The translations under genes were made by a program, and so were the position numbers. Shown in pieces: positions 11,933 through 25,154 of a DNA stretch of 64,000 nt (position 1 is the stretch's first letter; each line of letters starts with the position of its first letter). The DNA lies in the NCBI GenBank assembly GCA_025059745.1, contig JANXDH010000005.1, positions 1-64,000 on the forward strand. The letters are read 5' to 3'. The notes beneath the pieces are model-generated. The model did no database searches. It was not told the DNA's origin and saw nothing but the letters and a program-made list of their open reading frames with translations. Source of the DNA: Aigarchaeota archaeon (GTDB taxonomy: Archaea > Thermoproteota > Nitrososphaeria_A > Caldarchaeales > Calditenuaceae).

Positions 11933-12757
11933 CTACTCGAACTCTAGGGGGGCGGCTCTATACGACCCTAGGACCTTGAGGAAGAGCGTCTTCTTGGTCA
12001 GGTCGGTCAACGCATTCCTTACTAGGTCATCATCTATGTGACCCTCGAAATCGACGTAGAAGTTGTACTGCCAAGGCCTCGCCCTTGTTGGCCTCGACTC
12101 TATCTTGGTGAGGTTTATGCCGCGTTCCGCAAAGGCTCCAATAGCGTTGTAGAGCGCTCCCGGCCTGTGAGCGACGCTGAAGATCACGCTGGTCTTGTCA
12201 GCACCGGACGGAGGCTGCACATCATAACCTATGATGAGGAACCTCGTGTAATTCCGTCCATAGTCCTCTATGTCACTCGCTAGGACCTCCATCTCATATA
12301 TCTCGGCCGCGCGCTGACTTGCTATCGCGGCGTTAGTAGGGTCCCCCATCTCCTTTATCATCTTGACAGAACCGGCCGTATCGTAGGTGCTGAAGAGCTC
12401 AACGCCCAGAGACTCGAGGTAGGCCCTGCACTGACCGATGGCCTGGGGGTGTGAGTAGACGCGCTTTATGTCGGACACACTTGCACCGTAGAGGCCTATT
12501 AGACAGTGCCGGATCCTCATGTTTATCTCTCCAATGACCTTCAGGCCCGTGGTAAGGAGTCTGTCGTAAGTCTCGTTCACCGGGCCCTCTATGCTGTTCT
12601 CTATCGGGACGACGCCTGCCTCTGCCTCACCAGCCTCGACCGACATGAACACTGAGGTAATAGTCTTCTTCGGTAACATCGTCACGCCCTTGCCGAACTG
12701 CTTTATCACTGCCTCCTCACTGAAGGAGCCGTACTCTCCCTGAAACGCAACTATCAA
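11933..12757 (-). CDS. pheA: Prephenate dehydratase
   Basis: Converts prephenate to phenylpyruvate in phenylalanine synthesis. The 274-residue monofunctional enzyme begins FQGEYGSFSEEA, has the VPIENSIEGPVNETYD substrate loop and the TRFLIIGYD segment (Thr-Arg-Phe catalytic motif, T near residue 170), then a C-terminal ACT domain (FSVAHRPGALYNAIGAF, ESRPTRARPWQYNFYVD) for phenylalanine feedback. The start is TTG, about 29 bases from a TATA-like CTATATTAT (12780-12791 complement). No fused chorismate mutase is present. The partner TyrA is at 39748. Confidence 0.95.
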   Translation of the reverse strand: MIVAFQGEYGSFSEEAVIKQFGKGVTMLPKKTITSVFMSVEAGEAEAGVVPIENSIEGPVNETYDRLLTTGLKVIGEINMRIRHCLIGLYGASVSDIKRVYSHPQAIGQCRAYLESLGVELFSTYDTAGSVKMIKEMGDPTNAAIASQRAAEIYEMEVLASDIEDYGRNYTRFLIIGYDVQPPSGADKTSVIFSVAHRPGALYNAIGAFAERGINLTKIESRPTRARPWQYNFYVDFEGHIDDDLVRNALTDLTKKTLFLKVLGSYRAAPLEFE

Positions 12758-12801: not shown

Positions 12802-13560
12802 CTACCTCAAGAACCTCGCCCTTATCTTGGAGCTGATGGCGTCCATACCCATGACGAACGCCAAGATAACGAGTATACACATCAGGAGGCCATCGTACCT
12901 CAGAGACTGGGCCAACGCCAATATGAGGTAGCCGATCCCTCCGGCTCCGACCAATCCAATTATACTTGAAGCCCTGACGTTGTACTCAAAGATGAAGAGG
13001 AGCTGGCTGATGATGTAGTTCGCTGTCTCCGGAACTATCGCGAACCTCAGCAGTTGTAGTTGAGACGCGCCCACCGCGCCGACGCCCTCGAGAACCTCCT
13101 TGCTAACTGAGTCGAAGCTCTCATAGAAGAGCTTGCCGAGATAGCCGACGGTGTAGAAGGAGATCGCCATTACGCCAGCGGGCGGCCCCAACCCTATAAT
13201 TATCACGAAGATGAGGGCCCAGAGGAGCGAGGGCACAGTCCTTATGACGGCCAACAAGGTCCTAAAGGGCACGGTCACGTGTTTAGGGAACAGCAGCCTT
13301 GAGCTGAGCATCGCGAGCGGAAGCGATAGGAAACCTCCGATTACGGTCCCAGTGAAGGCCATCAGCACCGTCTCGTAGGTCGCCTCTAAAATCAGCGGCA
13401 CTAGGCTCACATCAGGCGGTATCATCTGGACTATGAAGGGCACTAGATTCGCAAAACGTCCCAACCTACTCGGGTCCAACAGCCCGACCTGCCATAACGA
13501 ATAGATCAACGCACCAATGAACGCTATGAACCAAACGTCTCTGGGTACTCGTCCCCTCAT
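12802..13560 (-). CDS. phnE: PhnE-type ABC transporter permease
   Basis: Inner-membrane permease of a phosphonate/phosphate-type ABC importer, 252 residues with about six transmembrane segments. The coupling motif region EGVGAVGASQLQLLRFAIVPE near residues 155-175 and VRASSIIGLVGAGGIGYL fit PhnE. It overlaps the ATPase gene by four bases (ATGA), so the three transporter genes form one operon (D, C, E in transcription order). No phosphonate lyase genes are nearby, so the substrate may be phosphonate, phosphite or phosphate. Confidence 0.9.
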   Translation of the reverse strand: MRGRVPRDVWFIAFIGALIYSLWQVGLLDPSRLGRFANLVPFIVQMIPPDVSLVPLILEATYETVLMAFTGTVIGGFLSLPLAMLSSRLLFPKHVTVPFRTLLAVIRTVPSLLWALIFVIIIGLGPPAGVMAISFYTVGYLGKLFYESFDSVSKEVLEGVGAVGASQLQLLRFAIVPETANYIISQLLFIFEYNVRASSIIGLVGAGGIGYLILALAQSLRYDGLLMCILVILAFVMGMDAISSKIRARFLR

Positions 13561-14297
13561 CTCATCGCACTCAGCAAGTCCATCCCCTTGGTAGTGCCCG
13601 GACTGCCTCGGAACGTTATCCCCCCCTCCCTCATCACTACCAAGGAGTCGGCGTACTCATAAGCGATGTCGGCATCGTGGGTCGTGATGACCAACGTTAT
13701 CTTCTTCTCACCCTTGCATATCTCCCGGAAGACCTCTAGTACGTCCCTTGATGTCAGTGGATCCAACTGACTGACGAACTCATCCGCGAGTATCACCTCG
13801 GGGTCCTGCATCAACGTCCTGGCGATCGCGACCCTCTGCTTCTGCCCGCCGCTGAGAGAAGAGACCTTATTGTGAGCGAAGTCCTTCAATCCCACAGTCT
13901 CGATGACCCTTAACGCCCTCTCGACCTCCTCCTCAGGGAACTGACCTAGTATAGAGTGGAGCGTTGAAACGCGTGAGAGCGCGCCCGTGAGTACATTTTC
14001 TAACACGCTTAAGTTGGAGACCACCCCGAAACCCTGAGGAACGTAGCCGATGGATCTGTAAGCGACCCTCCTGTCCTCATCTGATAAGAGGTCTTTACTC
14101 CTGTACCTTATAATCCCGGAAGTCGGCCTCAGTATGCCCTTGAGGACCTTCAATAAGGTGGTCTTCCCCGCACCGCTCCTACCGAAGATCATGTAAACTT
14201 TACCCTCCTCCAACTCGAGCGAGACCCCCCTCAGTACGAACTTTGAGGGTTGGTAGGCGTACCATACGTCTATGCACTCTAGTACACTGGTCGTCAA
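13557..14297 (-). CDS. phnC: PhnC-type ABC transporter ATP-binding protein
   Basis: ATPase of the same importer, 246 residues. Walker A is GRSGAGKTT, the Q-loop region is YVPQGFG, the ABC signature is SSLSGGQKQRVAIARTL, Walker B is VILADEF, and the H-loop is VITTHD. After Walker B the usual D-E is DEFVSQLDP, as in PhnC proteins. Starts and stops overlap the neighbouring genes by ATGA on both sides, indicating tight coupling with the binding protein and permease. Confidence 0.92.
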   Translation of the reverse strand: MTTSVLECIDVWYAYQPSKFVLRGVSLELEEGKVYMIFGRSGAGKTTLLKVLKGILRPTSGIIRYRSKDLLSDEDRRVAYRSIGYVPQGFGVVSNLSVLENVLTGALSRVSTLHSILGQFPEEEVERALRVIETVGLKDFAHNKVSSLSGGQKQRVAIARTLMQDPEVILADEFVSQLDPLTSRDVLEVFREICKGEKKITLVITTHDADIAYEYADSLVVMREGGITFRGSPGTTKGMDLLSAMR

Positions 14298-15226
14298 GTG
14301 AACTCGAAACCCGTGAGCGTGATGTACTTCTGAAGCGCTGAGAAGTGCTCCTCCGCACTCTTCGCCTCGAATCCGACGAAGAGCGAGGAGACAAACCTCC
14401 TCATCAGGTATTGGTGTTCCGGTCCAGAGAGCTCGAGGAAAGCTTGCTTTACTCGTTGCTTCAAATCGTTTGGTAGGTCTTTGATCACCACGACACCATG
14501 AGATGGCAAAGGTCCTTGAGACTCTAACACTTTACTCGCGCTCATGGCCTGGGTGTAAAGACTATAAGATACGTCACCCGCCATGACCGTGACATCCACC
14601 TGTCGTGCCCTCAGGGCCTCCCAGCACTGTCCGTACCCTCCACCGAATACGACGTTACCCTTCCCGAAGAAGTCCTCCGGGTCCACGCTGGCACCCCTTT
14701 TCTCTATGAGTCCAAGCTCGACCAATTTAGCCATCGGTGCCAAGTAACCCGATGATGAGACCCGGCTCGGGAAACAGACCTTCTTACCCCTCAACTCCTC
14801 CAACGACTTGTAAGCGCTATCCTTGAGGACTATCCAGTAAGAGTAGTAATTCGTGGCGTTGATGACTCTATCACCCACCGCCACAGTCCTGACCTCTACC
14901 AGCATGAGTTCGGACCCCGATCTTTGGACCGCAAGGTACGCCGGCCAGGACCCCATGAGCGCCAAGTGGACCGTCTTGAACCTGAGGCCCTCTATGACGC
15001 CCGTGTAGTCGGTGGGCACGTATATCTCCACTGGCAACCCTATTCTCCTCGAGAGGAAATCCGCCAGATCCCGCGAGAGCTCCTTGATCTCAACTGGGTT
15101 CTGGGTGGGCTGTACTGCTATTATCAGCCTGTCGATCCTGTTCTGGTCGTTCAGCCAGATCGCATAAGCAGCTATCGAGAAGATCACAACTACGGCCAGA
15201 ACCAGTAGCGTTGTCGATTTCTTCAT
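14294..15226 (-). CDS. phnD: PhnD-type phosphate/phosphonate substrate-binding protein
   Basis: Extracytoplasmic binding protein, 310 residues. A hydrophobic N-terminal segment (LLVLAVVVIFSIAAYAIWL) after KK serves as a signal or membrane anchor. The body matches PhnD: VQPTQNP, FKTVHLALMGSWPAYL, LRGKKVCFPSRVSSSGYLAP (split across the family's SxTSGxL site) and GGGYGQCWEALRARQVDVTV. The serine-rich SRVSSSGYL region corresponds to the anion-binding site. It is the first gene of the transporter operon. Confidence 0.9.
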   Translation of the reverse strand: MKKSTTLLVLAVVVIFSIAAYAIWLNDQNRIDRLIIAVQPTQNPVEIKELSRDLADFLSRRIGLPVEIYVPTDYTGVIEGLRFKTVHLALMGSWPAYLAVQRSGSELMLVEVRTVAVGDRVINATNYYSYWIVLKDSAYKSLEELRGKKVCFPSRVSSSGYLAPMAKLVELGLIEKRGASVDPEDFFGKGNVVFGGGYGQCWEALRARQVDVTVMAGDVSYSLYTQAMSASKVLESQGPLPSHGVVVIKDLPNDLKQRVKQAFLELSGPEHQYLMRRFVSSLFVGFEAKSAEEHFSALQKYITLTGFEFT

Positions 15227-15245
15227 GGCATTTCTACCACATTCC

Positions 15246-15254
15246 GTAATATAA
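15246..15254 (-). promoter_or_regulatory. TATA element of the phnDCE operon
   Basis: On the minus strand TTATATTAC lies about 24 bases before the phnD ATG at 15226. A second TATA-like TTTATATA (complement of 15261-15268) lies 38 bases away. The surrounding 70 bases are much more AT-rich than the coding DNA. No Shine-Dalgarno site is visible before the ATG, which favours the nearer element and a leaderless mRNA. Confidence 0.55.
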
Positions 15255-15307
15255 CTCTGTTATATAAACTTAAATACGTTTAATTAATTTCTTTACACCG
15301 TAAAGTT

Positions 15308-16240
15308 CTATTTCGTCTTGGCCTTGCGCAACTTCTCTATGAAGACAGGTAGGAACTGGTAGAGGTCCGCGATCACTGAGTAATCTGACTCCCTGTGTAT
15401 AGGTGCGTTAGAATCGTTGTTGATCGCGACGATCGTCTTGGCTCCCCGTATCCCAGCCACGTGTTGCATCTGGCCCGATACGCCTATTGCGATGTAGAGC
15501 TTGGGGCCGACCCATTTCCCGGATAGACCTATGTGCCGGTCCTCGCTGAGCCACTTCAAGTCGCCTGATATCGGCCTCGTGCAACCTACCTCGCCGCCCA
15601 CCTCTCTTGCCAACTCCTCCGCGAGCGCTATGTCCTCTTTCTTCTTGAACCCCCTGCCCACGCTCACGATGATCTCGGCCTTCGTTAGATCAACAGCCTC
15701 CTTCATGACCGCCCTCATCTCCACGAACCTTACCCTCTCATCGACCTCCGGATCGATCCGGGTGATCTTAGGCTTACTCGCCGCGGTCACCGCCTCGGGC
15801 TTCGTCCGTCCAACCCTCAAAGTGACGACTACTGGAAACTCAGCGCGCTGTTCAGCGACGTACGTACCTCCGTAAACCGTACGCGAGACCTTGAGTGACG
15901 GTCCATCAACTTCAATCGTCACGCAGTCATTCAGACAACCCACCCTCAACCTTTGAGCGGCCCTTGCGGCTATCTCACGGCAATCCTTGGTAGACGGTCC
16001 CAATATGACGGACGGTTTGAAACTCTCAGAGCACCTGACCACCGCGCTCGCGAACGAGTTGTTGCTAAAAGCCCCCTCCATGAGGTAGACTTCACTGAGG
16101 CCGTAGGCCTCGACCTCACCGATGCTCGTTGCGTCGCTCCCAACGAGCAGTCTGACGTCATCGAACCCTGCACGCCTCACCGCTGTGATCATCTCGGGTG
16201 CGTACTCTCTGACCTTAGTGAATATCAAGGCGCCGCTCAT
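15308..16240 (-). CDS. etfA: Electron transfer flavoprotein alpha subunit
   Basis: FAD-binding subunit of the ETF heterodimer, 310 residues. The C-terminal FAD domain shows SVGRGF, CTRPISGDLKWL, GLSGKWVGPKLYIAIGVSG and QMQHVAGIRG, ending in INNDSNAPI. It starts four bases inside etfB (ATGA overlap) and is the last gene of the membrane Fe-S oxidoreductase - cyclo-ligase - etfB - etfA unit. ETF collects electrons from flavin dehydrogenases and passes them to a membrane acceptor, here very probably the Fe-S protein encoded at 17778. Confidence 0.95.
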   Translation of the reverse strand: MSGALIFTKVREYAPEMITAVRRAGFDDVRLLVGSDATSIGEVEAYGLSEVYLMEGAFSNNSFASAVVRCSESFKPSVILGPSTKDCREIAARAAQRLRVGCLNDCVTIEVDGPSLKVSRTVYGGTYVAEQRAEFPVVVTLRVGRTKPEAVTAASKPKITRIDPEVDERVRFVEMRAVMKEAVDLTKAEIIVSVGRGFKKKEDIALAEELAREVGGEVGCTRPISGDLKWLSEDRHIGLSGKWVGPKLYIAIGVSGQMQHVAGIRGAKTIVAINNDSNAPIHRESDYSVIADLYQFLPVFIEKLRKAKTK

Positions 16241-17016
16241 ATCCTGACCAACCCCTCCCTGACGAGCTCGGATAACAGCTTCTCGGCCGCCTCATCCAGA
16301 GAGCCTGAGATCACGACTCTCTTCCTCTCGACCTTGAGCGCCCTGACAGAGGCACAGACGACCCTCGGTCTCAACTCGTTCTCGTCCAGCCCTAGACTCT
16401 CTAGGGGAACCGAGTTTATCGGTTTCTTCGAGGCCGCCCTGATCATGAGAAGGCTGGGTAGGCGCGGGGTGTTGATCTCTAACCCGACCGTCAGGACTAT
16501 CGGTAGCTTTACGTCTAATACTTCTCTCCCTTCCTCAAGGTCCCTCTCGACTCTCAACCCCTCCTGTTCTGCATGAATCCTTATCACGTGTGTAACACTG
16601 GGGAGACCTAACTTCTCTGCGACCCTAGGTCCGACCTGATATCCTCCCTCATCGACCGAACACTCACCGCAAAGTATGAGGTCTGCATTACCGACGGTCC
16701 TAGATAAAGACGCCAGCACGTTCGCGTACACCCAGCCGTCCGCGTGCTCGAGCCTCTTATCGGAGACAACATACGCCTCATCAGCGCCCATCGCCAGCGC
16801 CTCTCTTATGAGCAAAGGTTTGACGTCAGGACCAGCTGAGATCACGACCACTCTGCCCTTGAAATTCTCCTTCATCCTGATGCCCTCTTCAAGAGCGTTG
16901 AGGTCAAAGTCGCTCAGTTTCGTCTGCGCGCGTTCGTATATTGGCTCGAGGGTCTTAGGGTTCGGTTCTAATGTGTTTGGATCATAAGTCTGCTTAACGA
17001 GGACGTGTATCTCCAA
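16237..17016 (-). CDS. etfB: Electron transfer flavoprotein beta subunit
   Basis: AMP-binding beta subunit of ETF, 259 residues. Recognisable parts are VLVKQTYDPNT at the N-terminus, SDFDLNALEEGIRMKE, SAGPDVKPLLIREALAMGADE and DLILCGECSVDEGGYQVGPRVAEKLG followed by VERDLEEGREVLDVKLP. The EtfB nucleotide-binding loop residues are in that last region; whether this is a bifurcating type cannot be settled by eye. A Shine-Dalgarno-like GAGGTGAGG precedes the start. Confidence 0.95.
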   Translation of the reverse strand: MEIHVLVKQTYDPNTLEPNPKTLEPIYERAQTKLSDFDLNALEEGIRMKENFKGRVVVISAGPDVKPLLIREALAMGADEAYVVSDKRLEHADGWVYANVLASLSRTVGNADLILCGECSVDEGGYQVGPRVAEKLGLPSVTHVIRIHAEQEGLRVERDLEEGREVLDVKLPIVLTVGLEINTPRLPSLLMIRAASKKPINSVPLESLGLDENELRPRVVCASVRALKVERKRVVISGSLDEAAEKLLSELVREGLVRI

Positions 17017-17058
17017 TTCCTCACCTCCTGATCGGGGGGCTGAAATATTAACGTACTT

Positions 17059-17781
17059 CTATCTCCTCAGCGAGCCGCGCATGTCTCGGAGGAGCGGGAT
17101 CTCTTTTATCTTACCCTCGTCGAGAGAATCCCACAATATCCCCTGTGGTCTTTTATTATTCGCTCTCACCTCGATGACGCGCGTGTTAGTGAATATGTAA
17201 TTTAGAGGAACATCATACGCCTCGCGTGGTATGAAATCTACCAACTGGAGGTCGTGTACGGTCGTGACTATTGGGACGTTACCATCGACCCTTCTAAACT
17301 CGCTCAATATGGCGTACTCTATCTCACTATAGCCCTCGCCCTTCCCCAACCTCCAACCGTCCTCGGTGACTGCTACGGAGCCGAAGACCAATAGATCGAT
17401 CTCAGGTAGATCCTCGGGCGCCACCTCCACCCCCAACCTCATGAAGTTCTTGATGGCTAATCTTAGTTCGACGCCCTCCCCTCGTATCATATCGGGTTCA
17501 AGCATCAGGAAACCTCTCCTCAACCTCGGCGTGGGCACTACCAAGACCTTACCGTCCCCAAGGACGCGATCCCTGATGCACCTCTGGGGAGAGTCGGGGT
17601 TCACCTTGACGACCCTCGCTCGCTTGTAAATACTCGAGTCGAACAACCTCTCAGCGGCCGTATCAGCGCCCTTGAAGTTCGGTATCCTCCCCTTCACGGG
17701 GAACGGTGGCAAGGCTACGCCCTCCTTGACGAGTCGATCCCAGACCATGAGCCTTATCTCTTGCTTTCCCCGGTTCATCAT
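17059..17781 (-). CDS. 5-formyltetrahydrofolate cyclo-ligase family protein
   Basis: ATP-dependent enzyme that returns 5-formyl-tetrahydrofolate to 5,10-methenyl-tetrahydrofolate, or an archaeal pterin analogue. The 240-residue protein has KQEIRLMVWDRLVKEG at the N-terminus, PTPRLRRGFLML, LLVFGSVAVTEDGWRLGKGEGY (the substrate and ATP loop) and VPIVTTVHDLQLVD. The start overlaps the preceding oxidoreductase gene by ATGA, so it is embedded in the ETF operon. Placement of a C1-folate enzyme between ETF genes and their oxidoreductase is unusual and suggests linked C1 and redox chemistry. Confidence 0.85.
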   Translation of the reverse strand: MMNRGKQEIRLMVWDRLVKEGVALPPFPVKGRIPNFKGADTAAERLFDSSIYKRARVVKVNPDSPQRCIRDRVLGDGKVLVVPTPRLRRGFLMLEPDMIRGEGVELRLAIKNFMRLGVEVAPEDLPEIDLLVFGSVAVTEDGWRLGKGEGYSEIEYAILSEFRRVDGNVPIVTTVHDLQLVDFIPREAYDVPLNYIFTNTRVIEVRANNKRPQGILWDSLDEGKIKEIPLLRDMRGSLRR

Positions 17782-19769
17782 TCGAAGACTTCAGAGAGGT
17801 CCTTTATCTCTATCTTTCCCTCGACTCCCATACTCCTCGCAGCGTCCTCGAACATGGCGAGGCAGAAGGGACACTCCACTATCATCACCTCAGCCCCTGT
17901 GCTCAGGCCCTCCTCCAACCTCTCGTGACTCTCGCGCCTCCTCCTCCTTACCTCGTACCAGTAGTTGCCCCCGCCCGCTCCACAGCAGAAGCTGTTCGTC
18001 CTGTTCCTCCTCATCTCGACCAACCTCACTCCCTCAAGGGCCCTCCTAGGCTCCTCCGTTACTCCGTTCACCCTACTCATATAGCAAGAGTCGTGGAATG
18101 TCGTCAACTTTCCCTCTATAGGCTTAATCTTGCCCTGTGACCTCAACTCCGCAAGTAACTCAGAGTGATGGACGACCTCCAGCTCGATCCCCAGCTCGGC
18201 GTATTCGTTCTTTATGACGTTGAAGCAGTGGGGACAGTGCGTAACCACCTTCCTCACACCGTACCTCTTGAACGTCTCTATGTTAGACAGGGCTAGCTCC
18301 TGGTACCTACCCTCCTCCCCCATCCGCCTCGCAGGGTCTCCCGTACAAGACTCGACCGGCATTATCGCGAACTTCACGCCTGCCTTGATCATTAATCTAG
18401 CCATCCTCAAGGCTATCTCCTTGGCTTTCGGATCGAAAGAGGACATGCATCCGAGCCAGTAGAGGTACTCGAAGTCGTCCACCTCCTCCACGGTCCTCAC
18501 GCCCAGCTCCCGCAACTCTCTCACAAGAGCCTCACGCTGAGACTGTGGGTAACCGTGGGGGTTCTGGTAGCGCGAGATGTTGGTTAGAGTCGCTGTGATC
18601 TTCTGGTCCGTTATCCCACCCATCACAATCGACCTCCGGCTCTCGATGATGAATTCAAGCGGCCTGATGAGTACCGGACACGCCTCCACACACGCACCGC
18701 ACGTCGTACAAGCCCATATCTCCTCCTCGGTGAGGACCCCTGACTCGAAGAAATCGACGTTCTCGGTCCTGCCCACATCGTAGTTCCAGACCGCTGATTT
18801 TAGTTTCTGCACGACCATCCGCGGTGAGAGGTTGGTCCCGGCCGCGAGGGCAGGACACTGGACGTCGCATCTCCCGCAATCAGTGCACGCGTCGAGCGAT
18901 AACCTCTGTCTCCAGCTCAAGTCACTCACGGTCCTTATGCCCATGCGCAGCTCTGTCGCGTCAGGAGGTAGCTCCGCGAGGTTGAAGGGGGTAGTCATGG
19001 ACGAGACCCTAATTTGAGAGATCATGGTGTTGAGGGGTGAGATGAAGACGTGGAGCATGTTGGAGTATGGCAGGTAGGCCACCAGTCCGAATGTGATCAG
19101 GGCGTGTGCCCACCAGGTGACCTGATAGATTCCTGTTGCGAGCTCGGGCCCCATAGGTAGGTAATCCAGATAGCCAGCCACAGTCCAGCCGACGAAAGAG
19201 TACCCGCCCCACTCCACGGGCCTGACGTGGAGCCTCAACGCCTCCAATAAATATCCTGAGACGCCTATGAAGAGGAGTCCTCCGAGGTACGCGTAGTACT
19301 CGTTCTTCTCCCTCAACCTCTTCAACCCCCTCACCCTCCTCAGGATCGCCAGTGATACGCCGATTATGAAGAGGAGGCCGAAGAGGTCCAGAGTCACCTC
19401 GTAGATCAGATAGAAGGGCCCTCTCAGCAGCTTCTCGTTGAAGAAACTCAGTATGTCGTGGTCGATGAAGACTAGCGCGGTCCCTATGAAGAGCACGAGG
19501 GCGCCGTACATTAGAGGTATGTGCATCAGGCCGCTCGCCCGGTCTAAGGTCACCTTCCTCTGCAACCAAGCGTATCTGAGAAGGGACGTGATACGACTCC
19601 TAGGGGCGGCCACGAAGTCCCTCAACAGGTTAGAGACTCCGTAGCCCCTGAACCTGAGGTAGACGCCGTAGATGAAGACCGCCGCGAACGGTACTAGAAC
19701 GGTATACATCAGGAGGTCCGTACCCTCCGGCATCAGCACGAAGTTCTCCCTAAAAGGGCCACTCAGCAC
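17778..19769 (-). CDS. Membrane Fe-S oxidoreductase (HdrD-like CCG protein with cytochrome-b-like N-terminus), likely ETF:quinone-type acceptor
   Basis: A 663-residue integral membrane redox protein. Residues about 15-260 hold five or six transmembrane helices of the NarI/cytochrome-b type with histidines that could bind haem. Two [4Fe-4S] ferredoxin motifs follow: CTDCGRCDVQCP and CTTCGACVEACP. The C-terminal half holds two cysteine-rich CCG domains like heterodisulfide reductase subunit D (CPHCFNVIKNEY, and FCCGAGGGNYW with CPFCLAMFEDA). Proteins of this design encoded with ETF are known as ETF-to-quinone oxidoreductases. Context with etfBA supports that role, feeding electrons into a membrane carrier. 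The start is GTG, 27 bases from a TATA element. Confidence 0.88.
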   Translation of the reverse strand: MLSGPFRENFVLMPEGTDLLMYTVLVPFAAVFIYGVYLRFRGYGVSNLLRDFVAAPRSRITSLLRYAWLQRKVTLDRASGLMHIPLMYGALVLFIGTALVFIDHDILSFFNEKLLRGPFYLIYEVTLDLFGLLFIIGVSLAILRRVRGLKRLREKNEYYAYLGGLLFIGVSGYLLEALRLHVRPVEWGGYSFVGWTVAGYLDYLPMGPELATGIYQVTWWAHALITFGLVAYLPYSNMLHVFISPLNTMISQIRVSSMTTPFNLAELPPDATELRMGIRTVSDLSWRQRLSLDACTDCGRCDVQCPALAAGTNLSPRMVVQKLKSAVWNYDVGRTENVDFFESGVLTEEEIWACTTCGACVEACPVLIRPLEFIIESRRSIVMGGITDQKITATLTNISRYQNPHGYPQSQREALVRELRELGVRTVEEVDDFEYLYWLGCMSSFDPKAKEIALRMARLMIKAGVKFAIMPVESCTGDPARRMGEEGRYQELALSNIETFKRYGVRKVVTHCPHCFNVIKNEYAELGIELEVVHHSELLAELRSQGKIKPIEGKLTTFHDSCYMSRVNGVTEEPRRALEGVRLVEMRRNRTNSFCCGAGGGNYWYEVRRRRRESHERLEEGLSTGAEVMIVECPFCLAMFEDAARSMGVEGKIEIKDLSEVFE

Positions 19770-19790
19770 ACAGGTGAAATAGACCTAGAA

Positions 19791-19817
19791 GGTAAAATAC
19801 GTGTCGTCCGAAACGAC
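19791..19817 (-). promoter_or_regulatory. Promoter and small dyad ahead of the ETF oxidoreductase operon
   Basis: On the minus strand GTATTTTACC (19791-19800) is centred about 27 bases before the GTG at 19769. Directly upstream is the inverted repeat GTCGT-N5-ACGAC (19803-19817), placed where a TFB recognition element or an activator or repressor site would lie. This marks the Fe-S oxidoreductase/etf genes as having their own promoter. The regulatory role is inferred. Confidence 0.45.
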
Positions 19818-19837
19818 CTCAATTCTGAACTGAGCGA

Positions 19838-20734
19838 TCAAGAACCGCGCTTTATGGAGGGACTGACCTCCCTCATGAACCACCGCATTCTCCTCTCGTA
19901 CTCATCTTTCTTCACCTCACCCATATACACGACTATGTTACTCACGCCCAGCTCAACGTATCTCGAGAGATATTCTATAACCTCATCGACCGATCCGCCT
20001 ATGATCACTCTAATGTCTCCTAAGTGAGAGGTAAACAACCTCGTCCGTTTATCGGGGTCTATCGTGAAGCGCCCTGAGAGGATAAACCCCTCCCTCCTCA
20101 TCCCGTACTTCTCGACGAGGTCCCTATACTTATCAACCGGTACACCTGTTGGGTGCCATCCATAACATAACCTTATCGCCCTCGCGGCCGCCCTCTCCGA
20201 GTTGCCCGCCATGAGTATCGGCGGACCGCCACTCTGGACCGGGAGAGGACTGAAGACGACGTCTCTTATATCGTGGTACTTTCCCTGAAAGGAAGGCTCA
20301 CTGGATCTCCATACGTTCCTCAGGACACCAATCTGTTCCTCGATAATCTCCCCGCGCCTCGCATAACTGGCCCCCATCACCTCAAACTCCCTCCTCTCCC
20401 ACCCCAGGCCTATCCCTATTATGGTACGGCCGTTGGTGAGGAAATCTAAAGTGGCAATCTGTTTGGCTACCTGCAAAGTGTTCCTGAGGGGAAGGACGAT
20501 GACTGACGTCCCGAGTTTGACCCTCTCCGTCAACCCGCCTACGTATGACAACGTCATGAGGGACTCGGTTATGTTGCCGTAGGGGTGACTGAACTGCTTC
20601 GAGATCGCTATGTGGTCCGAGGTCCAGATCGAATCGAACCCCAGCTCCTCGGCAAGTTGAGCCGATCTAACGACCAACTCTCGAGAAAGGTGCTCTCCGT
20701 AGTGAGGGAGACAAACTCCGATCTGCACGCTCAT
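19838..20734 (-). CDS. Luciferase-like (LLM class) F420/FMN-dependent oxidoreductase
   Basis: TIM-barrel flavin-dependent oxidoreductase of the bacterial luciferase family, 298 residues. Family marks are AQLAEELGFDSIWTSDH near residues 26-42, the strand VKLGTSVIVLPLRN, and LDFLTNGRTIIGIGLGWERREFE. Archaeal members often use coenzyme F420, for example methylenetetrahydromethanopterin reductase and F420-dependent dehydrogenases. The substrate is not evident. It lies 22 bases downstream of a DAO-family oxidoreductase and upstream of the ETF unit, all on one strand. Confidence 0.87.
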   Translation of the reverse strand: MSVQIGVCLPHYGEHLSRELVVRSAQLAEELGFDSIWTSDHIAISKQFSHPYGNITESLMTLSYVGGLTERVKLGTSVIVLPLRNTLQVAKQIATLDFLTNGRTIIGIGLGWERREFEVMGASYARRGEIIEEQIGVLRNVWRSSEPSFQGKYHDIRDVVFSPLPVQSGGPPILMAGNSERAAARAIRLCYGWHPTGVPVDKYRDLVEKYGMRREGFILSGRFTIDPDKRTRLFTSHLGDIRVIIGGSVDEVIEYLSRYVELGVSNIVVYMGEVKKDEYERRMRWFMREVSPSIKRGS

Positions 20735-20756
20735 ACGATCCAGTATAGGGGATTGT

Positions 20757-21905
20757 CTAGTATAATTCTATTACTCTGTCCCCGTACTCTCTGTCGACAT
20801 CGAACCTAGCGGGGTGGTAGCATGTTGGATCGATCTCAGTCGGTCTTCCAAGGATCATTGAGGAGAGCACCTCGGCGAGCGCAGGAGCGCGCATCAACCC
20901 ATAGCCGTCGAGTCCATCTATTATATAGACGTTCTCGAGGAACGGCGACCTCCCGAGTATTGGTCTCCCGTCCGGTGACGAGCTGCATACACCTACCCAG
21001 CCCCCTCCTACCTTGACCTTATCTGTTGTAGCGCACCTCTTCTCGAACTTACTCGCGACCTCCCACACGTACTCCGGTTCAGGCCTCACGGGTACCCCAT
21101 CGGGGTCCTCTACGATCCTCGCGAGGCCGTTACCTATCACGATAGTGTCCCTGGAGAGAGGCCGCACGTACAGGTGATCCTCCGTAAAGTAACAGGGAGC
21201 ATTGGCCGAGGAGAACTCCCCCCTGAGGCTCAGGAGTTGACACGTATAAACGGTCGTGGGCATCCTGGTCAGATTCAGTTCCTTGAGCAGCTGCTTGTTC
21301 CAAGGGCCGGCCGTTAGGATCAGATCTTGTCGGATCTTCAACGTGATGCCCGAGTTCTTCAGCCTCGCTCCTACGACCGAGTCATCAACTACCTCAATGG
21401 AGGAGACGGTGTCCCATTCTATTATTGTTACACCGAGCTCCTTCAACAGAGAACGCGCGCACTCCACGAAGTTCTCCGAGTTCACCACACCGTCATCGGG
21501 AGTGATCAGCAACGACTCGTAATCCTTCACCCTCAGGTATGGCAGCAGGGTCCTGGCGTCATAGCACGAGGCAACCTCAAACCTCACCCCGTTTCGCCTC
21601 AGTACCTCCATCGAGTCTCTGATCATCCACTCAGGCTCGACGGTTACGAATGAGGTCTCCCTGTAGATCGGCCTATCGTTATCGCACTCGAGTGACCTGT
21701 ACAGCTCTATGCTCCTCCTAGTGAGAGCGACGTCATCGTCTAGATTCAGCTGCGTCGTCACTATCCCCGCAGACCTACCGGTTGACCCCGACCCGATCGT
21801 CCTCCTCTCGACAAGTGCGACCTCGAGTCCACTCTCTCCGAGGAAGTACGCGGTCCATAACCCGCACATCCCGCCGCCTATGATCAGGCAGTCGAAGGTC
21901 CTCAT
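20757..21905 (-). CDS. DAO-family FAD-dependent amine/amino-acid oxidoreductase
   Basis: A 382-residue flavoprotein of the D-amino acid/sarcosine/glycerol-3-phosphate oxidoreductase superfamily. It begins with the FAD dinucleotide fold CLIIGGGMCGLWTAYFL and ends in an acidic VALVERR strand, then GSTGRSAGIVTTQ. The C-terminal FAD contact is GVCSSSPDGRPILGRSP and IIDGLDGYGLMRAPALAE. The frame is open to 21965, but ATG at 21905 is preferred: it sits directly before the fold and about 26 bases from AATAAAAT (complement near 21928-21935). Size resembles the sarcosine-oxidase beta or glycine oxidase subunit. A role as an ETF-linked dehydrogenase is inferred from the neighbours. Confidence 0.85.
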   Translation of the reverse strand: MRTFDCLIIGGGMCGLWTAYFLGESGLEVALVERRTIGSGSTGRSAGIVTTQLNLDDDVALTRRSIELYRSLECDNDRPIYRETSFVTVEPEWMIRDSMEVLRRNGVRFEVASCYDARTLLPYLRVKDYESLLITPDDGVVNSENFVECARSLLKELGVTIIEWDTVSSIEVVDDSVVGARLKNSGITLKIRQDLILTAGPWNKQLLKELNLTRMPTTVYTCQLLSLRGEFSSANAPCYFTEDHLYVRPLSRDTIVIGNGLARIVEDPDGVPVRPEPEYVWEVASKFEKRCATTDKVKVGGGWVGVCSSSPDGRPILGRSPFLENVYIIDGLDGYGLMRAPALAEVLSSMILGRPTEIDPTCYHPARFDVDREYGDRVIELY

Positions 21906-21976
21906 GCTTACTAAAGATTTCCGTGCTATTTTATTAACCTCATCACAGATATAAGAATTCACCAATGGGGGATCTG

Positions 21977-21992
21977 ATATTTTTAAAAATAT
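21977..21992. promoter_or_regulatory. Perfect 16-bp AT palindrome in a 164-base gene-free gap
   Basis: ATATTTTTAAAAATAT reads the same on both strands. The surrounding interval 21906-22069, between the ThiD-ThiN stop and the FAD oxidoreductase start, is the most AT-rich gap in this part of the window and has no recognisable gene or RNA. It could be a second promoter, a regulator site or a transcription stop for the thi gene. Confidence 0.35.
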
Positions 21993-22069
21993 AAGTGATA
22001 ATATAACACGATAATCTTTAACGCGTCTTTATAACGGGGGTCTTCAGATCTTTAGGTGATGCGTAGATC

Positions 22070-23428
22070 CTACACCTTGAGATACTCCCGTAATATCAGC
22101 TTGAACTTATCTACCACGTCCAACGAATCACGTCCTATTATGAGGATCATCGGTTCCTTACCGTAATCACCCATGTGATATATAACGTCCGTCACTTTTC
22201 CTGCGGACCTTACGGCCTCTCTTATCCCCCACCTGACCGTCGCTCCCTCAACCCTCTTGACCTCGGGGGGCTCCCTCGACCTGTCATACGAGCTCACGGA
22301 GAAGTTCAATCTCTCGACTATGTTGATTATTGACTCATCGAATTTTATGTTCATCGCAGACCTCATGTTGCTGTCGTAGTTCGATATCTCGAGGAGGGCC
22401 GAGGCTACGTGTCTCGAGGCACCGGGGCTCGGGGGTCCTGAAGCCCTGAGGTAACCGTCTATGCGCACAAGCCTCCCCGGGATCGCAATTACATCTCGGT
22501 GGTCTCTGGGATACGGTAAGGACTCGGCCAAGTTTATCATGGACTCGGGCGCCAATGTACCTGCACCCTCAAGACCTTCTAACGTCCTGACTGCTTTTTG
22601 CAGTCGTTCGATTGCTCTGTGAATCTCCGCATCTCTAATGAGGGAACCTATGGGGTTGACGGGGCCACTCCCCCTCCCTATCGCGAACGAGTAGGCGATC
22701 GATGAGGTGACGAACTCCTTTGCAACTCCCACCGCATCCACCACATCCCTCCCCTTCGCCAGCTCCGCTGCAATCGCCGATGCGAAGACGCAACCAGTCC
22801 CATGGGTGTTCTTCGTATCGATCCTCTTCGAGACGAACCTGAAGACTCTGTCCCCGTAGAGAAGCACATCGACGACCTCATCTCCGTACAGGTGCCCTCC
22901 CTTCACCACCACGGCCTTGGACCCCCAACCTGCTATGCTCCTAGCTGCATCGATCTGGTCCTCCACGCTTTTTATCTCGAGACCCGTTAACAGCCTGGCC
23001 TCGTAGGCGTTCGGGGTGACCACGGTAGCAACGGAAATCAGACCCTTCATGGCCTCAATCGCATCATCACGCAAGAGCTGAGCTCCGCTCTTTGCGACCA
23101 TTACCGGGTCCACCACAATGGGTACCTCTAATCTGGCGACCTCCGCAGTAACCGCCTCGATTATGGAGGCGCTGAACAACATACCCGTCTTTATGGCGTC
23201 GACCCCTATGTCCTCCACACAGACCCTCACCTGCTCCAGAATTGCGCGGGCGTCCAGGGGCACTACTTGGGTAACTTTGGCAGTGTTCTGGGCCGTGATG
23301 CACGTTATAGCAGACATGCCATGAACCCCTAACGCCGCGAACGTCTTGAGGTCGGCCTGTATCCCAGCTCCCCCTCCAGAGTCTGAACCAGCGATGGTCA
23401 GGGCCCTCGGAACCTTAGGTTTATCCAT
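22070..23428 (-). CDS. thiDN: Bifunctional HMP/HMP-P kinase and ThiN thiamine-phosphate synthase
   Basis: Thiamine synthesis enzyme. Residues about 8-270 are ThiD, which phosphorylates hydroxymethylpyrimidine twice: [50 protein letters not shown], and the C-terminal [17 protein letters not shown] anion hole. Residues about 290-452 are ThiN, the archaeal replacement for ThiE, with [30 protein letters not shown] and [15 protein letters not shown]. The frame is open to 23503, but the ATG at 23428 ([16 protein letters not shown]) is chosen because it follows the stop of the upstream gene by five bases. No TPP riboswitch is evident. Confidence 0.93.
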
Positions 23429-23433
23429 GAGAT

Positions 23434-23844
23434 TCACATCAACCCCCAGCTCACTTTCCTCAGGGGAGTGACTTTTATAATTGCAGCCTCCCCCTCGCCC
23501 CATGGGTCGTTCCTCGCCCAGGCGAATCTCTCGAAAAACATCTTAGAGACTTCAACGAACTCAGGCCCCGAGTATAGAGTCTGAGCATCGCCGACGACCA
23601 TCACGGCCTTGTTAGGTTTGTAGCGATCTATAACCAGCGCCACCTTATTCCTGCGTTCGACGTTCCTCAGCTTCCTGGTTCTAAGGTCGGTGACCATGTA
23701 GAAGGCACCGTTCTTATAGATATAACAAATGGGTACCAGATGAGGGTAACCGTTCTCATCGACGGTGGCAAATCTGCATATCTCGTTCCTCTTTATGAAA
23801 TCTAGCTCCTTCTCATTGAACGTTATCATCTGGTAATGAGACAT
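23434..23844 (-). CDS. Pyridoxamine-5'-phosphate oxidase-like flavin-binding protein
   Basis: A 136-residue split-barrel protein of the PPOX class: [24 protein letters not shown] at the start, [20 protein letters not shown], then [21 protein letters not shown] and VVGDAQTL. Such proteins bind FMN, F420 or haem; the reaction is unknown. It is directly upstream of thiD-thiN with five bases between, so the two are probably one transcript. A link between this flavoprotein and thiamine or pyridoxal metabolism is possible but unproven. Confidence 0.82.
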
Positions 23845-23921
23845 CTGACGCTGTCTATAACTATTAAAGAGTTTAACACCATAGGACTTTTATACGATCC
23901 ATACACTTCTATAACCTAGGT

Positions 23922-25154
23922 ATGCAGAGGACCTACCCGATCGATGTAGAGGCCGTCAGGGAGGACTTCCCCTTACTGAGGAGGAGGGACGTCATATATC
24001 TGGACAACGCAGCGACCACCCACAAACCGAGGCAGGTGATAGACGCTATCAGGGAGTTCTATGAGCGGATGAACGCAAATGTCCACAGGGGCGTCTACCA
24101 GCTGGCGATCGAGTCGACCGAGGCATATGAGGACGCCAGGAGGAAAGTCATGGAGTTCATAGGCGCGAGGGATAGGAGGGAGATCGTCTTCACTCGAAAT
24201 ACGACTGAGTCCATAAACCTCGTGGCCAACGGATACGGCTTCAAGAAACTCACCCGAGGCTCGAAGGTAGTCCTGAGCGAGATGGAACACCACAGCAACA
24301 TAGTCCCCTGGCAGATACTGGCTAGGAGATTGGGATGCAAGATAGAGTATGTCCCGATCACCGACGAGGGCGAGCTCAGGTACGATCTGATGGAGAAGAT
24401 GGTGAGGGACGCCTCGGTAGTCTCTATCGTTCACGCCTCCAACGTACTCGGCACGATAAATAACGTGAGGGAGATCGTCAAGCTCGCGAAGGATAACGGG
24501 GCCGTGACCGTGGTGGATGCAGCACAGACCGTACCTCATATGCCGGTTGACGTCGGCGAGATGGGTGTGGACTTCTTAGCGTTCTCAGGCCACAAGATGC
24601 TGGGGCCGATGGGGATAGGAGTCCTCTACGGACGGAGAGAGCTGTTGGAGGAGATGGACCCGTTCCTAGGGGGCGGAGAGATGATAAGAGAGGTCACGCT
24701 GGAGGGCAGCAGGTGGAACGAGGTGCCGTGGAAGTTCGAGGCAGGGACCCCTAACGTCGCTGACGCGATCGGCCTGGGTGCAGCGATCGATTACCTCAAG
24801 CGTCTTGGTATGGACAAGGTCAGGGATCACGAGAGCAAACTGGTCAGGTACGCATTAGAGAGACTCCGGGAGATCCCCCACCTGAGAATCTACGGGCCGA
24901 ACGACTCGTACGAGAGGGTCGGCGTCCTCTCCTTCACACTGGCAGACGTGCACCCCCACGACCTAGCGGAGCACCTTGACAGGAAGTTCAACATAGCCAT
25001 CAGAGCCGGTCACCACTGCGCGATGCCATTACACTCTAGACTCAATCTGACCGCGACCTCACGTGCGAGCTTCTACATCTACAACACTTACGAGGAGATA
25101 GACAAGTTGGTTGAGGGACTCGTCTCTGCCTTAAACTACTATAAGGTCATATGA
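23922..25154 (+). CDS. sufS: Cysteine desulfurase, SufS type
   Basis: PLP enzyme that takes sulfur from cysteine for Fe-S cluster and thio-cofactor assembly. The 410-residue protein has YLDNAATTHKPRQV, the TRNTTESINLVA and EMEHHSNIVPWQ motifs, VVDAAQTVPHMPVDV, the PLP lysine in FSGHKMLGPMG, and the catalytic cysteine in RAGHHCAMPLH. The short loop around that Cys is SufS-like (type II). The ATG is about 29 bases from TTTTATACG. No sufBCD or SufU gene is in the window. Confidence 0.93.
   Translation: MQRTYPIDVEAVREDFPLLRRRDVIYLDNAATTHKPRQVIDAIREFYERMNANVHRGVYQLAIESTEAYEDARRKVMEFIGARDRREIVFTRNTTESINLVANGYGFKKLTRGSKVVLSEMEHHSNIVPWQILARRLGCKIEYVPITDEGELRYDLMEKMVRDASVVSIVHASNVLGTINNVREIVKLAKDNGAVTVVDAAQTVPHMPVDVGEMGVDFLAFSGHKMLGPMGIGVLYGRRELLEEMDPFLGGGEMIREVTLEGSRWNEVPWKFEAGTPNVADAIGLGAAIDYLKRLGMDKVRDHESKLVRYALERLREIPHLRIYGPNDSYERVGVLSFTLADVHPHDLAEHLDRKFNIAIRAGHHCAMPLHSRLNLTATSRASFYIYNTYEEIDKLVEGLVSALNYYKVI

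Follow-up and report, generated by a model that had tools for sequence, protein, structure and literature searches.

Does a run of six co-oriented genes, in which both subunits of an electron transfer flavoprotein (ETF), a membrane iron-sulphur (Fe-S) protein and an apparent folate enzyme lie behind a flavin-dependent amine oxidoreductase, encode the steps of one pathway or the parts of several? The question is raised by positions 15308-21905 of contig JANXDH010000005.1, of which 64,000 nt (hereafter the window) were analysed, from an Aigarchaeota archaeon that most likely belongs to Ca. Calditenuaceae, order Caldarchaeales; the accessible text of PMC10547907 proposes this family name for GTDB family HR02. 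A first-pass annotation had proposed that dehydrogenation of N-methyl amines at this locus delivers electrons to ETF and a one-carbon (C1) unit to tetrahydropterin. The account favoured here, with somewhat better than even confidence, is that an EtfD-ETF module adjoins a thiamin module and that a paralog of the COG0212 type, related to 5-formyltetrahydrofolate cyclo-ligase (5-FCL), is lodged behind etfD.

Family-level profile searches used Pfam, with matches judged against gathering cut-offs, and equivalog models of NCBIfam were judged against their curated cut-offs. The six same-strand genes of the first-pass annotation were recovered as open reading frames (ORFs), all on the minus strand, and Pfam backs each name at the family level (Table 1). 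They are transcribed in the order DAO-family flavin adenine dinucleotide (FAD) enzyme, LLM-class oxidoreductase, membrane protein of the CCG type, 5-FCL-like protein, EtfB and EtfA. Gaps of 22 bp and 68 bp follow the DAO and LLM genes, respectively. The last four genes are, as had been described, overlapped or close, with 4-bp overlaps at the CCG/5-FCL-like and EtfB/EtfA junctions and 42 bp between the 5-FCL-like and EtfB genes. Immediately upstream, beyond the limits of the earlier annotation, is a ThiD-ThiN fusion (ThiDN), and it is this gene that would explain the DAO-family enzyme.

Sequence comparison places the membrane protein among ETF:quinone oxidoreductases of the EtfD type, and with EtfBA it makes up a module of a known kind. 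At E ≤ 1e-20 its PDB matches were to mycobacterial EtfD alone (M. smegmatis, 9ojn_A). In EtfD, as described in the available part of a cryo-EM study (PMC13083937), the two CCG domains carry a non-cubane cluster and a linear [3Fe-4S] cluster; the protein further contains two cubane clusters, a menaquinone site and a b heme that lies between a pair of histidines. Features shared with the mycobacterial protein are a hydrophobic N-terminal domain (segments 15-42, 78-110, 117-149 and 160-180, the stretch around H222 falling below a crude threshold), two candidate heme histidines, two 4Fe-4S motifs and two CCG domains, D1 and D2 ligands that include Cys-Thr and Cys-Pro-His-Cys, and EtfB and EtfA genes nearby. 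The two differ in length, since 9ojn has 1042 amino acids (aa), with the match stopping at 733, whereas the archaeal protein has 663 aa and lacks the C-terminal extension; they differ also in the gene for the 5-FCL paralog that separates etfD from etfB in the window.

When the window protein was aligned with 16 relatives (17 sequences), 20 of the 21 ligand-type positions checked were identical throughout: eight ferredoxin cysteines, four cysteines of D1, five cysteines and a histidine of D2, and the candidate heme histidines H83 and H222. By analogy with His78 and His241 of EtfD, these last two may be the ligands of a heme b. The remaining position, T476, is occupied by Thr, the residue distinguishing EtfD from heterodisulfide reductase, in nine sequences (the window protein and eight others); unlike the mycobacterial protein, six relatives, all of genus g4, have Asn at this position, one (G054) has Ser and one (G060) has Cys. 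EtfA was encoded within 2 kb of EtfD in 16 of the 36 genomes having both; within the order but outside Calditenuaceae, a count without the weakest rows gave 13 of 19 genomes. The overall counts for the pairs EtfD-EtfA, paralog-EtfA and paralog-EtfD use all rows; when the weakest paralog genome (G060, E 1.5e-4) is set aside together with the 17 EtfA rows that matched least well, the first of these becomes 16/35.

These data support, at the level of sequence, the earlier proposal that ETF feeds a membrane Fe-S oxidoreductase. In such a respiratory branch, flavin dehydrogenases would reduce EtfAB, and electrons would then pass through the linear/non-cubane and cubane Fe-S clusters and the heme b of EtfD to the quinone pool; three acyl-CoA dehydrogenase matches in the window genome are candidate clients of ETF. 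Archaeal examples whose ligand residues are conserved thus join the known EtfD-ETF modules. A second EtfB/EtfA pair, flanked by large ORFs, was seen in the window genome at C3:169000-183000 (L091).

The DAO-family enzyme keeps company with ThiDN. An ortholog at E < 1e-70 was found in 11 of 12 Calditenuaceae genomes, among which the window genome is labelled G000, and its gene adjoins ThiDN in all ten that could be assessed (G000 to G007, G009 and G011); the contig of G010 stops immediately ahead of the DAO gene, hence ThiDN is not visible. In G001, G004 and G006 the gene stands beside ThiDN while the EtfD, ETF and 5-FCL-like genes are elsewhere, outside the stretch read. On the evidence of this adjacency the enzyme is probably thiamin-related, and it constitutes a candidate thiamin gene that is named by no equivalog model examined. 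It matched 32 NCBIfam models and lay below the cut-off of every one of the 25 examined, scoring 89.0 bits against TIGR02352 (ThiO; cut-off 250.8) and 99.5 bits against the N-methyl-tryptophan oxidase model (cut-off 257). The earlier label, sarcosine/D-amino-acid oxidoreductase-like, therefore holds for membership of the DAO family and goes no further among those models. The nearest folds to an AlphaFold2 (AF2) model of the protein (pLDDT 88.8) were monomeric sarcosine oxidase and the L-proline dehydrogenase 1y56_B, which is also the closest PDB sequence.

Two specific assignments of this enzyme were rejected. With sarcosine oxidase, the beta subunit of L-proline dehydrogenase and ThiO it shares the DAO fold and the FAD motif, and it differs from them in falling under the equivalog cut-offs; the glycine oxidase ThiO was discarded on the TIGR02352 score. 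The window genome also has Thi4, which needs no glycine oxidase. An ETF-linked sarcosine or dimethylglycine dehydrogenase was discarded on the linkage to ThiDN in all ten assessable genomes and on the lack of a folate domain: the Pfam scan gave no match to a GcvT or tetrahydrofolate domain at E ≤ 0.001 in the 382 aa of the protein, and the dimethylglycine dehydrogenases that it matched in the PDB are 841-869 aa long.

ThiC was found in none of the 12 Calditenuaceae genomes searched, and the pyrimidine part of thiamin is therefore probably salvaged. Nine of them have a full-length Thi4; it is split in G008 and fragmentary in G006, and the search did not reveal it in G002. ThiW, a component of a thiamin-precursor transporter, stands beside ThiDN in G003, where it was tested, and at L099, L106 and L122, where it was called by similarity. 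The second module would accordingly serve thiamin metabolism through ThiDN and the adjacent DAO-family FAD enzyme, joined in relatives by ThiW. Known salvage steps, as given in the accessible text of PMC10470507, run from formylaminopyrimidine to aminopyrimidine by YlmB and then to hydroxymethylpyrimidine (HMP) by TenA. A P-loop ATPase-like protein of ~190-210 aa was also seen beside ThiW and ThiDN at L034:2723-3283 and L126:7385-8014; the L034 protein gave weak Pfam matches only. Proteins of this kind perhaps have a role in thiamin-precursor uptake.

For the gene between etfD and etfB, the name 5-formyltetrahydrofolate cyclo-ligase stood at the level of family and fold and fell at that of the equivalog. 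An AF2 model (pLDDT 92) matched 2jcb with a Z of 17.9 and a root-mean-square deviation of 3.1 over 175 residues, the MTHFS fold extending over residues 1-205. Against TIGR02727, the bacterial 5-FCL equivalog, the protein scored 32.2 bits where the cut-off is 84.9, and the cut-off of PRK10333 was not reached either. After the GxGxG loop it reads GKGEGYSEIE, compared with GFYDRT in E. coli Fau and [YF]YDR in solved enzymes (1wkc, 1sou, 1ydm). An alignment (A1) was made of 23 rows selected from the relatives that a whole-protein search had recovered. None of these rows retains the second Tyr of the motif, three having Phe in its place, and all share the Lys and the final Glu of GKGxGYxxxE, the Glu lying three residues past the replaced Tyr. 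Motif counts over 86 sequences are biased, most loci having been fetched by a pattern containing the motif, and A1 is the fairer sample. Compared with 79 further members from archaea and bacteria, representing 79 of the 80 named loci (no ORF was called for L158), the protein showed 43-53% identity, as against 24% to E. coli Fau, the sole full canonical sequence compared.

By model score and motif, the protein is thus predicted to be a COG0212-type paralog rather than a canonical 5-FCL, and is likened by description to Arabidopsis At1g76730. A table in PMC3223725 lists At1g76730 as "Not a 5-FCL enzyme; involved in thiamine salvage" and gives 5-FCL activity of the plant COG0212 paralog as not detected; the portion of PMC4120688 available describes the Arabidopsis paralog as of unknown function, with thiamin associations. 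At1g76730 and its relatives (Pribat et al. 2011, as represented in citing papers) resemble the window protein in having the 5-FCL fold, a non-canonical motif and, in some genomes, thiamin neighbours; the window member differs in that its gene lies directly behind etfD and overlaps it. Most likely the protein would be an ATP-using enzyme of the 5-FCL fold that acts in the salvage or repair of thiamin precursors and not in folate metabolism.

Two leads bear on the job of this paralog. One is the overlap with etfD in Calditenuaceae; the other is found in Ca. Geothermarchaeum rappei (L126), where the paralog is directly behind ThiD-ThiN, ThiW and the P-loop ATPase gene. ThiD is near the paralog in five of the 80 named loci, three of them from Calditenuaceae, and ThiW in four of the 80; within the window ThiDN is ~4 kb away. 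The paralog was present in 48 of 61 relatives' genomes. Co-occurrence with ThiN offers no contrast, as ThiN is in 57 of the 61, and that with ThiC is uninformative (6/47 genomes with the paralog against 5/14 without). FolD was not detected in 39 of the 48 paralog-bearing genomes (38/47 without the weakest), a scarcity that does not by itself exclude folate use.

Two other settings of such genes were observed. At eight archaeal loci (L110, L127, L149, L150, L165, L167, L168 and L171), among them loci of Acidilobaceae, Desulfurococcales and Sulfolobales, the paralog is preceded by a UbiA-like prenyltransferase and an MTHFR-like protein and closely followed by a UbiX-like flavoprotein, the UbiA-like and UbiX-like proteins being named by eye. 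At L042:4937-8898, L043:378-4292 and L061:4819-8729, an apparent transporter set of the energy-coupling factor (ECF) type has beside it another 5-FCL paralog, which is more distant (30-31% identity). The members of these sets were named by eye as S-like, T-like and double ATPase; when two of the S-like proteins were scanned, one gave no family match and the other matched only QueT, below its cut-off.

The gene order at this locus is a Calditenuaceae arrangement, a shuffling neighbourhood rather than a fixed six-step pathway. The order ThiDN-DAO-EtfD-paralog occurs in eight Calditenuaceae genomes (ThiDN lying beyond the contig end in G010), with EtfBA behind it in two genera, and EtfD and the paralog overlap by 4 bp in seven of the eight. 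G000 and G002 share the run ThiDN-DAO-(LLM)-EtfD-paralog-EtfB-EtfA. The six genomes of genus g4 have DAO-EtfD-paralog, with ThiDN in front in the five where the contig reaches; in the four examined for it (G003, G005, G007 and G009) EtfBA is elsewhere, beside the prephenate dehydratase gene pheA. Genes are scattered in genus g2, in which EtfA is still beside pheA in G006. The LLM gene was seen in the window locus only; the loci read in relatives lack it, the remainder of those genomes not having been searched for it.

Across the compared genomes the paralog is directly behind EtfD in 8 of 32 (8/31 without the weakest rows) and within 2 kb of EtfA in 2 of 47 having both (2/46). A cyclo-ligase within an ETF operon is indeed unusual, as had been remarked, and the survey of its neighbourhood largely refutes conservation beside ETF; what is conserved, within Calditenuaceae, is its place behind EtfD. 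A conserved six-gene operon was rejected, the LLM gene being absent from the relatives' loci read and ETF being joined to the paralog in two genomes. An ORF of 73-80 aa on the opposite strand, Cys-rich with two CxxC pairs, was located by gap alignment between DAO and EtfD in five loci of genus g4, and a similar reverse frame is readable between the same genes in G003 (L034) and G002 (L033). A shared DAO-EtfD transcript is therefore unlikely in those relatives. The five ORFs (L036:10665-10886, L038:10533-10775, L039:5958-6179, L040:1244-1471 and L041:6335-6556) appear zinc-ribbon-like by eye. No publication describing this gene order emerged from the literature searches, although one may still exist.

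Several observations weigh against an EtfD-ETF module set beside a thiamin module with a paralog of thiamin function. No thiamin pyrophosphate (TPP) riboswitch was found with Rfam in 15000-24200, the sole match at E ≤ 1 being a fortuitous one to a miRNA model, short of the gathering score. The spacing of DAO and ThiDN is loose, from ~80 to 263 bp by the start chosen, and the closest solved relatives of the DAO-family enzyme are sarcosine oxidase, L-proline dehydrogenase and glycine oxidase. The window genome has FolD and GcvT, so that folate C1 chemistry exists there. No second PF01812 protein was found in it, making the paralog the only 5-FCL candidate seen, if the genome needs a 5-FCL. An MTHFR-like gene adjoins the paralog in 8 of the 80 named loci, including those of Acidilobaceae and Desulfurococcales; one of the eight was tested with Pfam (25.4 bits, cut-off 24) and the other seven were called by similarity to it. 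In addition, the paralog is within 10 kb of EtfA in four genera (g1, g3, g5 and g10) against 0.47 expected over 22, with P ~0.01 when g1 and g3, which have the same arrangement, are counted once. Its nearness to ETF may mean something; since the ETF copies and the intervening genes differ among the near cases, function and shared history cannot be told apart.

The FolD and GcvT genes, the lack of a second PF01812 protein, the MTHFR-like neighbours and the MTHFS fold would all suit a working 5-formyltetrahydrofolate cyclo-ligase engaged in folate repair, placed between etfD and etfB by an accident of gene shuffling. This explanation survives best among the alternatives and is nevertheless considered unlikely, given that the protein lies under both equivalog cut-offs, that every row of A1 has lost the second Tyr of the motif and carries the invariant Glu three residues on, that most genomes with the paralog have no detectable FolD, and that the plant paralog is tabulated in PMC3223725 without detectable 5-FCL activity.

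A single redox-linked route of thiamin salvage, in which the DAO-family enzyme would oxidise a thiamin-derived amine through ETF, EtfD would pass the electrons to quinone and the paralog would activate an N-formyl pyrimidine with ATP, is judged improbable. It could draw on the shared gene order in eight Calditenuaceae with EtfBA behind in two genera, the overlap of EtfD and paralog in seven of these, the failure to find ThiC in the family and a paralog nearer to ETF than expected; the scattering of its parts in G001, G004 and G006 and the opposite-strand ORF between DAO and EtfD in relatives speak against it. A more specific version, in which Calditenuaceae couple thiamin salvage to respiration through ETF, is more improbable again. 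Here the ThiDN-linked enzyme would oxidise thiamin-derived aminomethylpyrimidine, with ETF as acceptor and EtfD delivering to quinone, and the co-translated COG0212 paralog would act on N-formyl-aminomethylpyrimidine by the chemistry of 5-FCL, in which ATP activates an N-formyl group. If true, it would supply the reaction of the orphan COG0212 paralog.

Least probable of all is the N-methyl-amine route of the first-pass annotation, in which the DAO-family enzyme would dehydrogenate sarcosine or dimethylglycine, pass electrons to ETF and yield a C1 unit on tetrahydropterin for handling by the cyclo-ligase: a fitting superfamily, ETF and EtfD nearby in the window, and GcvT and FolD in the genome are outweighed by an enzyme that lacks a tetrahydrofolate-binding domain and stays with ThiDN where ETF, EtfD and the cyclo-ligase are elsewhere, by the opposite-strand ORF between DAO and EtfD in relatives, by a cyclo-ligase that is of the paralog type and joined to ETF in two genomes, by an LLM gene confined to the window locus among the loci read, and by the occurrence of FolD in 3 and GcvT in 2 of the 12 family genomes. 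That attractive pathway call is corrected to two adjoining modules, and the case illustrates how family-level names such as "cyclo-ligase" and "sarcosine oxidase" can mislead inside an operon.

Table 1. Coordinates of the genes of the locus and of its neighbours in the window, with the matches on which each name rests
Feature	Coordinates	Strand	Evidence and remarks
ThiD-ThiN fusion (HMP/HMP-phosphate kinase and ThiN-type thiamine-phosphate synthase)	22070..23503	-	PF08543 311.8 bits, PF10120 182.5 bits; PRK08573 530 against cut-off 528; conserved neighbour of the DAO gene
DAO-family FAD amine oxidoreductase, 382 aa	20757..21905	-	PF01266 166.6 bits
LLM-class oxidoreductase, F420-type subfamily TIGR03619	19838..20734	-	TIGR03619 203.2 bits against cut-off 166.9; Bac_luciferase 169.4
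Predicted EtfD-type membrane ETF:quinone oxidoreductase, 663 aa, GTG start	17778..19769	-	CCG 100.4 bits and Fer4 models; phmmer 2.2e-77 to 9ojn_A
5-FCL-fold protein, predicted COG0212-type paralog group	17059..17781	-	PF01812 (5-FTHF_cyc-lig) 87.2 bits; overlaps etfD by 4 bp
EtfB, ETF beta subunit, TTG start	16237..17016	-	PF01012 139.3 bits
EtfA, ETF alpha subunit	15308..16240	-	PF00766 (ETF_alpha) 110.7 bits, PF01012 (ETF) 70.7 bits; 4-bp overlap with etfB
phnD-phnC-phnE-like ABC transporter	12802..15226	-	TIGR01098 143.4 against 112.05; TIGR01097 241.9 against 216.7; ABC_tran 123.3
Prephenate dehydratase (pheA)	11933..12757	-	PF00800 218.5 bits

Downstream of etfA are a phnDCE-like ABC transporter and then prephenate dehydratase. 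The transporter separates etfA from pheA in the window genome, and in G002 (L033) pheA is directly behind etfA; pheA likewise adjoins EtfA in L081-L085.

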